Source: Candidatus Latescibacterota bacterium (GTDB taxonomy: Bacteria; JAAXHH01). From it: a stretch of 64,000 bases of DNA. Numbering within the stretch: position 1 is the stretch's first letter; every line of letters starts with the position of its first letter. The notes beneath the pieces are model-generated. The model was given only the letters and a program-made list of their open reading frames with translations, was not told where the DNA came from and made no database searches. Shown in pieces: positions 38,078-44,640 of the stretch. Location: contig JAJEEG010000006.1 of assembly GCA_022821085.1 (NCBI GenBank), positions 1,385,330 through 1,449,329 of the forward strand, in the 5' to 3' direction. The translations under genes were made by a program, and so were the position numbers.

Positions 38078-39172
38078 CTACCTGAACCAGTCGTAATTGA
38101 GACCCAGCGAACGGTCTTCCAGGGGCAGGTCGACGCGTACGCCGCCCTGTGCGGAGGAGCATTTCAGGGCGATCTCCACTTCCAGCGCCATGGCGACCCT
38201 GCGGCCCGAGTTCTTCGGTTCATCCAGCGTTCCCGCCAGGCAGTCCATCACGTCGTTCAGTGAATACACCCCGCCGTAGGGGGGCACGAACTGCGGACCC
38301 GGCCAGGGCACCTCTACCCTGTGGGGCCGGCCTTCCACCTCCATCTCCTCCCATCGCTGCCAGCCCGTCGGGAAGTCGTAGGCCAGGTCGCCCTTGCTGC
38401 CGTGCAGGCGCACGCCTGGAGCGCCCTTGCGAAAATGCACCACGAGACCGCTTTCGGTCACCATCATGCCCTGACCGTTAAACTCGTCGCTTCCCGATTC
38501 CCGCCGCGGTTCATCGCCGGTACCGATCACCCAGGCCGGTTCGCTGTCCAGGAAATAGGACCAGTTCTGGTGCTGGGCGAAGGGACCCGGCGCTTCGATC
38601 GACCGCAACTCTCCAATACCGCCTTCGCGCACCAGGGCGCCGGCACGGGCGAAGGATGGATGGGTGGTGGCGATCGCGCCGCAGCTCAACGGCACGCCCG
38701 CTTCCGCACAGGTCCGCACCATCCGGTCCGCTTCCTCGAGGGTATGGGCCATGGGCTTTTCGGTAAAGATCCCCTTCGCGCCATGGTGAACGGCGAGGCA
38801 GGTGAAATCGGCGCGATGCTTGGTGTTCGTCGCGACGGCCACGATGTCCGGCCGTTCGATGGCCAGCATATCCCCGGCGTCGTCATAGAGGGAGACGACG
38901 CCGTACCGTTCCCTGAAGGCGCGCAACCGTTTCACATCCCGCTCCGCCGCCGCGACCAGTTCGACGTCCGGGCGGTCCCACAGTGCTTCGGCGTAGGAGG
39001 AAGGCAACCCCTCCGTGCCCGGGTTTTCGTGGTAGTGGAATCGCCGATGGATGCTCAGATTGGGCGTCGGGCGGTCAATGTCGTCCACGTCCCACACGCC
39101 CGTCCTTTGCGCGAGATCGTAAAGCATACCCATCCAGCCGAGCCCAATGAGCCCTGCCCGGTACTTTGCCAC
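38078..39172 (-). CDS. Gfo/Idh/MocA family oxidoreductase
   Basis: 364 residues. N-terminal Rossmann domain (RAGLIGLGWMGMLYD), EKPMAHTLEEADRMV (catalytic Lys of the EKP motif), and a C-terminal alpha/beta domain with AKGIFTEKP, YDFPTGWQRWEEMEV. NAD(P)-dependent oxidation of sugars, inositols or their acids. I start at GTG 39172, since AAGGAG lies 7 nt before it, inside the frame of the longer ATG at 39187. It is the last gene of a minus-strand run. Confidence 0.9.
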   Translation of the reverse strand: MAKYRAGLIGLGWMGMLYDLAQRTGVWDVDDIDRPTPNLSIHRRFHYHENPGTEGLPSSYAEALWDRPDVELVAAAERDVKRLRAFRERYGVVSLYDDAGDMLAIERPDIVAVATNTKHRADFTCLAVHHGAKGIFTEKPMAHTLEEADRMVRTCAEAGVPLSCGAIATTHPSFARAGALVREGGIGELRSIEAPGPFAQHQNWSYFLDSEPAWVIGTGDEPRRESGSDEFNGQGMMVTESGLVVHFRKGAPGVRLHGSKGDLAYDFPTGWQRWEEMEVEGRPHRVEVPWPGPQFVPPYGGVYSLNDVMDCLAGTLDEPKNSGRRVAMALEVEIALKCSSAQGGVRVDLPLEDRSLGLNYDWFR

Positions 39173-39233
39173 GGAATGCTCCTTCATTTGTTCTCATTCG
39201 TTAATACGGCAGCGGTATATCCCGTTGCTCGCC

Positions 39234-40235
39234 CTAAAAAGGCAACGGCACGTCAAGCCGCTCGCTCATTTCCCGTACGGTGCGCTGTTCGATCTCGCCG
39301 AACCGGATGCCCTGCTCCCGGTGAAGCGCCACGCGCGCTTCTTCGATCGCGCCGGGCAACAAGGCCTCGTCATACCCCGGCATGGGTTCGTAGGTTTCTC
39401 TCACATCCCTTACGAAACGATCTACTTCCTTCTTGAAATCCCCCGCGGGAATCACCGTTTCGATGTGAATGGCCAGTACCATGCCGCCGTGATTCGCGCC
39501 CGGCCACCGGGCCTGTACCTCATCGGCCTCCTGCAGCGCGGCGCCCGCCAGCGCGCATCCCAGGACCGTGGCAACCGCCCCGTAACCGATGCTCTTGAAG
39601 AAGGCGGCCGGTATGCGGGACAGGAGGTCGTCGAATTCGGGCGAATGCTGGTAGTCGGCCAGGATGCGCGTGGCCACGTCCTGCACGATGGGCGGTTCGT
39701 CGCCGGCCGGAATCCCGAAGCAAAGCGGGGGATTGCCCAGGTAGCCGATCTGGGGCTTCGGGTCCTGGCCGCGGGCATCGCCCATGTTGCGGTAGCCCTG
39801 AACCGAGAATCCGATGCAGCCCGCCTCCATGCACATGCGGGTGTAGTGGCCCGCCGAGCCGTAGTGGCCGATGTGCCGGGCCAGTCCCATGCCCATACCC
39901 GTCTCGCGCGCCCTGGCGATCGCCCCTTCGGTCGCCTCCACCATGGGCCAGTACCCCAGCGTGCCGTCGCCGTCCACAGTGACGGAAGTGGGTGATTCGG
40001 CGATGACCCGTACACTGGGCCGTGGATTGTGATGTCCCTCGGCGAAGGATCGCGTATAGCCGGATGCGGCACGGACCCCGTGGCTGCGCACGCCTCTGAG
40101 GTCGGAGTTTACCAGCAGCCGGCTGATGATCGAAGCATGGTGGCCGGACAGGCCCACCTTCTCGAAACAGGCCGTCGTGAAAGCCAGCAGGGATGTTTCA
40201 TCGACATGGATGTATGCTTCCGGCGGACGGTTCAT
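39234..40235 (-). CDS. Ldh2-type malate/lactate dehydrogenase family
   Basis: 333 residues of the LDH2/MDH2 (YlbC-like) NAD(P)-dependent oxidoreductase family: LLVNSDLRGVRSHGV, DGDGTLGYWPMVEATEGAIARARETG, RHIGHYGSAGHY, LAGAALQ. Members reduce 2-keto acids, such as malate/lactate, sulfolactate or ureidoglycolate. AAAGGA precedes the ATG. It sits between the aldolase-like gene (105 nt upstream) and the Gfo/Idh gene (61 nt downstream). Substrate unknown. Confidence 0.9.
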   Translation of the reverse strand: MNRPPEAYIHVDETSLLAFTTACFEKVGLSGHHASIISRLLVNSDLRGVRSHGVRAASGYTRSFAEGHHNPRPSVRVIAESPTSVTVDGDGTLGYWPMVEATEGAIARARETGMGMGLARHIGHYGSAGHYTRMCMEAGCIGFSVQGYRNMGDARGQDPKPQIGYLGNPPLCFGIPAGDEPPIVQDVATRILADYQHSPEFDDLLSRIPAAFFKSIGYGAVATVLGCALAGAALQEADEVQARWPGANHGGMVLAIHIETVIPAGDFKKEVDRFVRDVRETYEPMPGYDEALLPGAIEEARVALHREQGIRFGEIEQRTVREMSERLDVPLPF

Positions 40236-40339
40236 CGATGGTTCCTTTGGAATTGCTGCGGTTTGACTTACTGCAGTTTACAAACACTGGTGTATATGGC
40301 CTGCGATGTCTGGCGAGCTAGAAGGGCGTACGGTTCCGA

Positions 40340-41065
40340 TCAGACCACCATGGGTGTCTGAAGCACGGTAAGGCCCATGTCGATATACTTCTGCCGATCA
40401 GAGGGGTCCAGGAGCGCCAGGCTGACGGCGACCGGCGTTCCCTCCATCTCCCGGGCAACGTGCCGGACGCAGTCGTCGACGGTCCGGAAAGGCGGGTTCC
40501 GATACCGTTCGATGTCGTACATGAGATCATTGGGACCGAAGGTGAGGACGTCTACGCCATCCAGCGCCAGTTTCCGGCAATTGATGACGGCGTCGACCGA
40601 TTCGAGCTGCAGCCACAGGACGCCCGTGTCGTTCCACCAGGCCGCGTACTCGAGGCGGTCGGCACGACCGGCGATGCCGTGGCGTGCGCTTCCTCCCCAG
40701 CTTCTTCCCCCGAACTTCGGATAGTAGAAGAAATGGACCGCCTCGCGCACCGTGGCTTCCTGCCTGACTTCGGGAACGAGGATGCCCGCGGGACCCAGGT
40801 CCAGATAGTTCCCGATCAGGTAGGTGTGCCGGGTATGCTTGATGCGCAGGATCACCGGCACGCCCAGCACCTCGGCGGTGGCGCAGAAGGACACGATCCG
40901 GTCCTCGCTCTGGGGGCCGTGCTGGCAGTCCACGTTGAAGAAATCGATATCGTCCTGCTGAAGATAACGTTCCAGATCCTCCCGGCCGGAATCCATGGAT
41001 ACGCCCAGGCCGGTCACGATTTCGCCACTTCGGATGCGGTGTTTCAGCGAGATTGGATGGACCAT
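40340..41065 (-). CDS. HpcH/HpaI family aldolase
   Basis: 241 residues. TIM-barrel class II aldolase/citrate-lyase-beta type: DFFNVDCQHGPQSEDRI, VILRIKHTRHTYLIGNYLDLGPAGILVPEV, WLQLESVDAV (metal Glu) and LTFGPNDLMYDI (metal Asp). These cleave 2-keto-3-deoxy sugar acids or malyl-type compounds into pyruvate plus an aldehyde. GGGAGG lies upstream of the ATG at 41065; the longer frame reads into the methyltransferase. Lies between the interrupted methyltransferase and the Ldh2 gene on the same strand. Confidence 0.88.
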   Translation of the reverse strand: MVHPISLKHRIRSGEIVTGLGVSMDSGREDLERYLQQDDIDFFNVDCQHGPQSEDRIVSFCATAEVLGVPVILRIKHTRHTYLIGNYLDLGPAGILVPEVRQEATVREAVHFFYYPKFGGRSWGGSARHGIAGRADRLEYAAWWNDTGVLWLQLESVDAVINCRKLALDGVDVLTFGPNDLMYDIERYRNPPFRTVDDCVRHVAREMEGTPVAVSLALLDPSDRQKYIDMGLTVLQTPMVV

Positions 41066-41088
41066 GACGGAACGCACCTCCCTCTCCT

Positions 41089-41832
41089 TTATATCTTCGT
41101 CAGAACCTGAAGTTGTACCGGTGTATCTACACGTATTACCGCCGAGGGATGACGCCCCAGGGTTCGTTCGAGGAGGCGCCGGTCCGCTACGGGTATGTGC
41201 GCCTTGTCCCACCACATGGCCCGGCACCGGTCGAACAGCTCCAGGCTGTCGAAGTAGTGCCTGAAAACGAAAACGGTGCGCGCACCCGTCACAATCTCTC
41301 GGCCGGCGACCGCCTCCGCCACCACCCGGTCCGCGAAATGAAAGTCGACATACTCACGAGCCAGCGTAGCCACCTGGTTCACTTCATGCGCGACCTGGCA
41401 GTATACCTGCTGCCTCGCGTGCCGGCGATTGCCCAGGCTTGCCGGGAAGTACGGACGGATGTCGACGACCCGGCCTCCGGGCTTCAGTACGCGACAGGCT
41501 TCGTGAAGGGCATGCCCCATGCCCTCTTGTCGCACTCATCACAACGACCACGAGAACAGGGCGAGGTCGAAACTCCTATCGTGAAAGGGCAGGCAGGAAG
41601 CATCGGCCACGGCGAAGCGCGCGATGCCCTCCAGCCGCTTCCTGGCATGGGCGCGCCCGACATCCTCTCCGGTCAGGTCGACCCCGACGATCGAATCGAT
41701 CCATCCCCTGATCCGGTTCGACAGCCGGCCGTCGCCGCATCCGATGTCGAGGACGCGCGCACCGTCAAAGGGCACGTGCCGCCTGATTATCCGCGTTTCA
41801 CGACGTTCCGGATCAACTCGAACGCCTTTCAT
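41089..41832 (-). pseudogene. Class I SAM methyltransferase split by two UGA codons
   Basis: An otherwise normal 245-residue methyltransferase in a single reading frame. Part 1 (41542-41832) has VLDIGCGDGRLS (motif I), VGVDLTGED and ADASCLPFHDRSFDLALFSWSL. Two adjacent in-frame TGA codons (41541-41539 and 41538-41536) come next. Part 2 (41089-41535) resumes directly at GTG with EGMGHALHEACRVLKPGGRVVDIRP, where the sequence expected after FSWSL picks up. So no frameshift is involved. It may be decayed, or made as two pieces by restart at GTG. Sequencing error is possible but would need two changes. Confidence 0.8.
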
Positions 41833-41910
41833 GCTTCACTCCCGCATCTGATGATATCGGGCCGGATTACGGTCCAGGCCGGTTATCGGGCCGGACCGGT
41901 TATTGGAACA

Positions 41911-42915
41911 TCAGGTCAGTCCGGCCGCCTCTTCGATCTCGACCCAACCGCCGGTTTCCTTCGACCGCTCTATGGCCAGTCCCGTAAGGTACAGCCCCGC
42001 GGCCATCCTGGCATTGGTGCGGTTCGGCGTGCCCTTTTCCACGGCGTCCAGGAAATCGGCGACGCTCTCCGCCTCGCCGGGCCACCCGCCGACCACCGGC
42101 ATCACGGGCGTCACGTGGATTGTTTCGCCCTCGGAATCGGCCTTGCTGCGCAACCGTATCGTGTTGCGAAAATAGTCGACGACCAGGTCGCCTTCGTCGC
42201 CGGTCACCTCGATCGTGGTTTCCAGCGTATCTACCGAGTCGATGTTCAGGTGCATCGTGCCCCAGAGGCCGCCGTAGTCGAACTGGACCAGGCTGTGGAA
42301 CTGTCGCCGGCCCGCCTGCCCGTGGCCGTCCATGACGAGCACCCTTGCGGGCGACCGACCAACGATGCTGTTCAACCCGTCCACGTACCAGGGTCCCAGG
42401 TGATGGGCGAGGCACAGATCCGGGCCGCCGAATTGTGCCCAGTTGCTCCGCAGTTTCAGGTGGACGGTCTGCGGCGCGCCGATCGCACCCTTCCGCAATA
42501 GTTCCGCGGCGCTGTGTATGACCGAAGCGTAGCCGATCTCGAGGTCGCCGTGCGTGACCTGGCCGGCCGCGACCAGCCGCTTCAGCATCCGTCGTATGCC
42601 GTCAGGACAGCCGGCGAGCGGCGGTTCGTAGCAGGCGGCAACTCCAGCGTCAAGGACGGCGTCCATAGCCGCCTCGTGAATGGCGTCGGGTATGGCCATC
42701 ATGACGGCATCGAGTTCGTGGCCGTCCAGCAACGCCTCAAAGCCACCATAGACCTGCACATCCGGACCCAGTTCCTCACGGATGCGCTCTCGAGACGCTT
42801 CGCTGTACGCCGCGGCGGAAACGATCACCACCTGGTCGTGTTGCCGCAGGGCGGGCACGAAGGCCATCCGGGTCCAACCTCCGAATCCGATCAGGCCGAC
42901 ACGCATGCTGGACAT
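41911..42915 (-). CDS. Gfo/Idh/MocA family oxidoreductase
   Basis: 334 residues. MRVGLIGFGGWTRMAFVPAL Rossmann start, AVMMAIPDAIHEAAMDAVLDAGVAACYEPPLAG, LNIDSVDTLETTIEVTGDEGDLVVDYF in the C-domain. The catalytic EKP is altered to EPPLAG (Lys absent), so activity could differ from canonical members. It heads the minus-strand run but lies 79 nt upstream of the methyltransferase start. NAD(P)-binding expected; substrate unknown. Confidence 0.85.
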   Translation of the reverse strand: MSSMRVGLIGFGGWTRMAFVPALRQHDQVVIVSAAAYSEASRERIREELGPDVQVYGGFEALLDGHELDAVMMAIPDAIHEAAMDAVLDAGVAACYEPPLAGCPDGIRRMLKRLVAAGQVTHGDLEIGYASVIHSAAELLRKGAIGAPQTVHLKLRSNWAQFGGPDLCLAHHLGPWYVDGLNSIVGRSPARVLVMDGHGQAGRRQFHSLVQFDYGGLWGTMHLNIDSVDTLETTIEVTGDEGDLVVDYFRNTIRLRSKADSEGETIHVTPVMPVVGGWPGEAESVADFLDAVEKGTPNRTNARMAAGLYLTGLAIERSKETGGWVEIEEAAGLT

Positions 42916-43887: not shown

Positions 43888-44640
43888 ATGGCGTTCAACG
43901 ACCAGGTAAAGCAGGATTTCGACCGCGACGGCTTCGTGCTGCTCAAGGGGTATCTGTCTTCGGCGGAAGCGGCCGAGATCAACAACAACATCGACCGGTT
44001 CATCGAAGAAATACTTCCGGGAGCGCCGGATACGACGGCCTTTTACGAAGACAAAGAGGATCCGTCGTCCATCAAGCGTCTGCAGAACATGGCTGAACTG
44101 GACCCGTACTTCGACGGACTGTTCGGATCCTACCGCTTTACCGAACTGGCCGGATTCCTGCTCGCGGACGATGTGCTTCCCAAGAATCCGCAGTGGTTCA
44201 ACAAGCCGGCCAGGGTGGGCGACGTTACCCCGCCCCACCAGGACGGCTTCTATTTCATGCTGGAGCCCAATGAGGCCGTGACCCTTTGGATCGCCCTGGA
44301 TGAAATCGACGAGGAAAACGGATGCATGCGTTACGTGCGGGGGTCGCACCGGCGGGGCATGCGTCCCCACCGGACGTCCAACGTACTCGGTTTTTCACAG
44401 GGGATACCCGATTTTTCCGATGAAGACACGGAACGGGAAGTGGCCATGCGCGCCAGCCCGGGCGACGTCTTCGCCCATCACAGCATGATCATTCACCGGG
44501 CGGACGCAAACCGGTCCGACCGCCGGCGCGCCGCCCTTGGGCTGGTGTATTTCGCGGCCAGGGCCAAAAAAGACGAAGAAAAGGCCGAACGCTATCGCCA
44601 GGAGCTCTTCGCCCGGTGGGAAAAGGAAGGCAAACTCTAG
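43888..44640 (+). CDS. Phytanoyl-CoA dioxygenase family protein
   Basis: 250-residue Fe(II)/2-oxoglutarate dioxygenase. Iron-binding HxD in PPHQDGFYFML (~117-119), distal His in HHSMIIHRADANRSDRRRAALGLVYF with the Arg for 2-oxoglutarate. Hydroxylates small molecules; natural substrates of bacterial members are diverse and mostly unknown. AGGAG 9 nt upstream of the ATG. Single gene. Confidence 0.93.
   Translation: MAFNDQVKQDFDRDGFVLLKGYLSSAEAAEINNNIDRFIEEILPGAPDTTAFYEDKEDPSSIKRLQNMAELDPYFDGLFGSYRFTELAGFLLADDVLPKNPQWFNKPARVGDVTPPHQDGFYFMLEPNEAVTLWIALDEIDEENGCMRYVRGSHRRGMRPHRTSNVLGFSQGIPDFSDEDTEREVAMRASPGDVFAHHSMIIHRADANRSDRRRAALGLVYFAARAKKDEEKAERYRQELFARWEKEGKL

Follow-up and report, generated by a model that had tools for sequence, protein, structure and literature searches.

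Tandem in-frame UGA codons predicted to encode an adjacent selenocysteine pair in a bacterial class I SAM-dependent methyltransferase family

Results

A methyltransferase gene carries two consecutive in-frame UGA codons

The DNA analyzed is a continuous stretch of 64,000 nucleotides (hereafter the window), and on its minus strand a reading frame extends from the ATG at 41832 to the TAA at 41091-41089. It comprises 97 residues, two TGA codons and a further 148 residues, and is otherwise open. The coding features are as follows.

41089..41832, minus strand: class I SAM-dependent methyltransferase gene, with a length of 247 residues provided that selenocysteine (Sec) is inserted at both UGA codons
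41539..41541, minus strand: first UGA, residue 98, predicted selenocysteine; UGA in 91 of 93 homologues, TGT in 2
41536..41538, minus strand: second UGA, residue 99, predicted selenocysteine; UGA in 75 of 93 homologues, TGC in 11, TGT in 7

The two consecutive UGA codons to which the original prediction had drawn attention at 41536-41541 are thus real, with the same frame on both sides. Taken from a single sequence, such a pair is weak proof of anything. The TGATGA hexamer occurs 36 times in the window when both strands are counted, and one further in-frame pair, on the plus strand at 41849, is the only other one flanked by at least 60 open codons per side. It is the conservation among relatives, described below, that lifts the pair above chance. 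A single TGA at 44491 on the minus strand is flanked by 107 and 78 open codons and followed by a SECIS-like hairpin; this codon lies antisense to the ORF 43888-44640 and is probably a chance occurrence.

The protein matched the Pfam model Methyltransf_11 (PF08241) with 68.3 bits against a cut-off of 21.2, and an AlphaFold2 model, computed with Cys in place of Sec and from 30 sequences of which 25 were pieces of generic methyltransferases, reached a pLDDT of 88.4 and showed the Rossmann-like fold of a class I methyltransferase. Its structural matches were YcgJ (1xxl, Z 22.3), TleD (5gm1/5gm2, Z 22.2) and RebM (3bus, Z 20.4). Residues 98-99 directly follow the strand 88-94 in this model, and the predicted Sec-Sec pair stands just after motif IV, in a loop expected in this fold to border the methyl-transfer site. 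In TleD, which like RebM is a class I natural-product O-methyltransferase, the pair aligns to the Cys-His of SLCH, whereas the alignments with RebM and MitM have gaps near the pair and gave no clear placement. The UbiE/MenG methyltransferase model (TIGR01934) was also considered and rejected, with 52.8 bits against a cut-off of 158.35.

Clustering of the ORFs around 20 relatives and the window gene revealed no common neighbour gene that would point to the substrate, and the partners vary by clade. In Chloroflexota they include a uracil phosphoribosyltransferase, an amidase, a weak match to C69 peptidases and a BMP-type binding protein, while HpaI-like aldolase, Gfo/Idh-like and lactate/malate dehydrogenase-like genes lie beside the window gene. 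The latter form a same-strand run around the methyltransferase (38078-42915, minus strand) that includes two Gfo/Idh-type oxidoreductases, an HpaI-like aldolase and a lactate/malate dehydrogenase-like protein. Parts of this run recur next to the methyltransferase in other members of the genus, and it is possibly a sugar-acid pathway.

The UGA pair is conserved in distant homologues

The same UGA pair was looked for in relatives, as had been suggested for this locus. When 59 genomes were searched at the DNA level, 11 of the 12 genus members proved to carry the gene, the window's own genome included, and the TGATGA with an open frame on both sides was kept in all 11, the other ten being 79-90% identical in DNA. 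Against these ten genus members, dN/dS was 0.10-0.19 before the pair and 0.13-0.24 in the first 70 codons after it, and the likeness of the two ranges indicates that both parts are under similar purifying selection. A profile search of 16 genomes of the window's phylum found the gene in 14, each with exactly two TGA codons. Three of these 14 homologues share a mere 42-48% protein identity and still have the pair, and no match at all was obtained in G009 (87% complete) or G012 (99% complete).

Beyond the phylum, named genomes were scanned, and in 74 of the 80 loci listed the match spans the site; among these, a stop was present there only in four (L037-L040). Among the matches listed, two homologues lay in Anaerolineales MAGs, one with UGA-UGA (L040) and one with UGA-TGT (L039). 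When the profile was run against 396 genomes of the Anaerolineae, the class to which L040 belongs, 51 genomes matched at E <= 1e-18. In 46 of these there are 48 genes that each have one or two TGA codons in frame; the five weakest matches (E 1.4e-19 or weaker) have no TGA and were kept out of the family. Similarly, 52 places in 47 genomes were found at E <= 1e-22 among 400 genomes of the phylum of L040, a set overlapping the class set, and all of them have one or two TGA codons. In 384 relatives drawn mostly from other families of the domain, the only members were the 14 of the window's phylum, and four matches without TGA (E 3.7e-21 or weaker) were generic methyltransferases with other residues at the site. 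For the searches of 396, 400 and 384 genomes, 6-7 candidates were scored per genome. After deduplication, in which L037, L038 and L040 were recognized as the same genes as L004, L015 and L139 and counted once, the family consists of 93 genes from 88 genomes of the window's phylum and Chloroflexota.

Two gene copies were found in five Chloroflexota genomes (G208, G437, G858, G963 and G1101). The two copies of G208 (L207; G208:C16:9000-28900) are about 4 kb apart and both UGA-Cys, and of those in G437 (L153 and L176) one is UGA-UGA and the other Cys-UGA.

Only UGA and Cys occur at the two sites

Every one of the 93 members has one or two in-frame UGA codons within a conserved frame, as befits bacterial selenoproteins. 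The site pair is UGA-UGA in 73 genes, UGA-Cys in 18 (TGC in 11, TGT in 7) and Cys-UGA in 2 (TGT), and nothing else was found, even though the search profile had Cys at both sites and other residues could have surfaced. Homologues with normal residues, which the original prediction had considered as a sign against the feature, were thus not what was seen; the opposite holds, and homologues show UGA or Cys. A homologue with Cys at both sites was not found among the 16 phylum genomes, the 396 of the class, the (overlapping) 400 of the phylum of L040 or the 384 relatives, with only 6-7 candidates per genome scored in the last three sets.

A tree was computed for the first 63 genes after masking of the two sites. 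In it, the genes of the window's phylum form a single clade (100/98), and single-UGA members, judged by eye, stand at at least five separate places. This scatter indicates that UGA and Cys have been exchanged repeatedly. Such an exclusive exchange between UGA and Cys is the classic signature of selenocysteine, and Sec/Cys exchange among homologues at the UGA position is a property that this family has in common with bacterial selenoproteins.

A covarying hairpin lies at a fixed distance downstream

A hairpin follows the two codons within the coding region.

41506..41526, minus strand: bacterial SECIS-type hairpin with a 9-bp stem, outermost pair G-U, and the loop GGG at 41517-41515

It starts 9 nt 3′ of the second UGA and folds with -14.6 kcal/mol, and the spacing to its loop is 18 nt from the second UGA and 21 nt from the first. 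The bacterial SECIS model, as given in a 2026 review (PMC13188914), has a loop of 3-9 nt, a stem of 4-16 bp, a G in the first two loop positions, a distance of 16-37 nt from the UGA and a folding energy of -7.5 kcal/mol or lower. The window gene agrees with this model, as do 91 of the 93 family members by best fold. The two failures are L144, where an alternative fold was preferred with the six core pairs intact, and L220, with one mismatch. In controls for the first 63 genes, 1743 of 11575 windows (15%) passed as well, which makes the SECIS model alone weak and non-specific evidence. A scan with Rfam at the gathering threshold gave no match in the window.

The hairpin occupies a fixed place in all 93 genes, with six core pairs in 91 and five in 2. 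L219 and L220 each carry one A-C mismatch in the core stem, and the first loop column is G throughout. Over a set of 89 distinct sequences, pairing at the six core positions amounts to 99.6%, and each of the six shows compensatory changes on both sides. None of 500 shuffles attained four of the five covariation measures, while 17 of 500 attained the fifth, and pairing dropped to 26-58% in slid controls. Codon choices on the two sides of the stem are coupled: of the first 63 genes, 43 combine Gly GGC/GGT with Ala GCC, 19 combine Ser AGC/AGT with Ala GCT, and 1 combines Ala GCC with Gly GGC. A constraint on the protein would not explain the choice of Ala codon, and on the aligned sequences the covariation is specific evidence, unlike the SECIS model alone. 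UGA-Cys and Cys-UGA relatives have the hairpin at an unchanged place, and its retention in single-UGA relatives of either type indicates that both codons are within decoding range.

The Sec machinery is encoded in the genome

The window's own genome carries selA and the following two genes, so that the machinery for Sec insertion (selA, selB and tRNA-Sec) is present.

C1:1847362-1849290, own genome: selB
C1:1849331-1849424, own genome: tRNA-Sec, anticodon UCA, 70.6 bits, adjoining selB

In tRNA-Sec searches the cut-off was exceeded in 5 of 14 control genomes as well as in 13 of the 16 genomes searched, with many second matches at about 47 bits, and because of these controls only matches of 68-71 bits were trusted. 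Of the 12 phylum genomes examined for both selB and tRNA-Sec (all of the 16 but G010-G013), 10 have both, with selB over its cut-off and tRNA-Sec at 68-71 bits, and all 10 carry the methyltransferase gene. The other two are G009, which has no such gene, and G015 (85% complete, about 1170 contigs), where the gene and selA are present and no selB or strong tRNA-Sec was found. selA occurs in 15 of the 16 phylum genomes, and the sole exception, G012, also has no methyltransferase gene. Among Anaerolineae, selB was found in 44 of 47 carriers versus 27 of 33 non-carriers, which is only a weak contrast, and selA is present in each of the three carriers that lack selB.

In the window's genus, the top selA match does not reach into the profile before about position 58-72. 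Most genus genomes also have a second selA-like protein, which scores 155-201 bits, under the cut-off (selA-type loci G000:C1:1866683-1867831 and G000:C6:57728-59113). This genus may use both a short SelA and a paralogue.

Both UGA codons are most probably read as selenocysteine

Conservation of the pair, the exchange with Cys only, the covarying hairpin at fixed spacing, the Sec machinery and purifying selection on both halves together make it very likely that both UGA codons are decoded as Sec, yielding a single 247-residue class I SAM methyltransferase with a Sec-Sec motif, a predicted selenoprotein. Of the original prediction, the feature itself and the option of recoding have stood, whereas the picture of a cut gene, of decay and of a restart has not. 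Its exclusion of a general recoding of UGA would be in keeping with the evidence for programmed Sec.

It is improbable that Sec is inserted at only one UGA, with a different amino acid or, for the most part, termination at the other. In favor of this, one hairpin has to serve two codons if both are Sec, and 20 of the 93 genes make do with a single UGA. Yet the non-UGA state is Cys at either site, which points to Sec at both, and the hairpin has not moved in the single-UGA genes, its distances of 21 and 18 nt both falling within the range of 16-37 nt in the model of PMC13188914.

Expression in two cooperating pieces, with a stop at the first UGA and a restart just after the pair, is very improbable. 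It is true that the next codon is GTG in the window gene and in 12 of the 14 phylum genes, and ATG or GTG in 36 of 93; in the other 57, however, the codon is ATC, ATT, ATA, GTC, GTT, TTT, CTC or ACC and never ATG, GTG or TTG. ATT, ATC and ATA are rare start codons elsewhere. The restart at the GTG that the original prediction had offered is thus contradicted by the want of a conserved start codon, and a split would leave both the UGA/Cys exchange and the covarying hairpin unexplained.

Read-through of both stops by some other route, such as a suppressor or near-cognate tRNA with the hairpin as a stimulator, is highly improbable: conserved hairpins close behind a stop are known from read-through as well, but all 20 sense residues seen at the two sites are Cys, and the genome has tRNA-Sec (anticodon UCA) and selB. 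A decaying pseudogene or an assembly error, which two in-frame stops within one gene might bring to mind and the former of which had been among the options first offered, has a practically negligible probability, since dN/dS is 0.10-0.24 on both sides and all 11 genus homologues and all 14 phylum homologues keep the pair; a sequencing error is likewise very unlikely, given the same pair in separately assembled species.

Discussion

In the mechanism that we propose for reading both codons as Sec, the hairpin would recruit SelB carrying Sec-tRNA-Sec, and SelB would deliver Sec at the first UGA and then, three bases on, at the second. The two selenols would act at the methyl-transfer site, most likely by binding or activating a soft methyl acceptor (a metalloid, thiol or selenol), the identity of which is a guess. 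Two UGAs in a row should lower the yield, which counts against the Sec-Sec reading. Recoding in E. coli is 30-40% per UGA according to PMC4513850, and by simple arithmetic, with independence assumed and E. coli rates, two UGAs would give about 9-16% full-length product. That UGA-UGA is kept in 73 of 93 genes despite this expected cost suggests a real benefit, and the diselenol is probably worth its recoding. Its position next to SAM hints at redox control or at a soft acceptor. We tentatively put forward, as one possibility, a vicinal-diselenol methyltransferase family in which the Sec-Sec after motif IV might hold arsenic, tellurium, mercury, selenide or a thiol as a soft acceptor to be methylated, might itself be methylated or might serve as a diselenide switch, with one SECIS programming two successive Sec insertions.

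The family opens two questions, namely how SelB manages two codons in succession and which role a selenol pair plays in a methyltransferase, and the natural relatives with Sec-Cys and Cys-Sec are ready-made controls. Gene-calling programs that take every UGA for a stop will break such genes up or miss them. In the literature searched on selenoproteins and tandem UGA, no report of tandem Sec in prokaryotes was found, and for tandem UGA only a paper on the Ebola L gene surfaced; the family may still have been noticed earlier. Of the 119 families and subfamilies tabulated in the 2026 review (PMC13188914), where some entries have no motif, none is listed with an adjacent UU, the nearest being CU, UxxU and CxU, and adjacent Sec-Sec from UGA-UGA under one bacterial SECIS is in none of its entries.

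MduS (NF045649), UXPK-star (NF047649) and the ArsM fusions (NF041536 and NF041537) likewise combine a SAM methyltransferase domain and Sec in one protein. When five members of the present family were scanned against NCBIfam, none of the best 25 of 34 models exceeded its cut-off, and matches to these four models were local, over the methyltransferase core, with 32.0, 51.6, 42.6 and 51.7 bits against cut-offs of 380, 460, 575 and 510, respectively, and so far too low for membership. They also differ in motif, which is CxxU or UxxG according to PMC13188914 and UU in the window's family. With bacterial bSECIS selenoproteins such as formate dehydrogenase, the family shares the in-frame UGA, the hairpin just downstream inside the coding region, the Sec/Cys exchange and selA, selB and tRNA-Sec; it differs from them in having two adjacent UGA codons under one hairpin.
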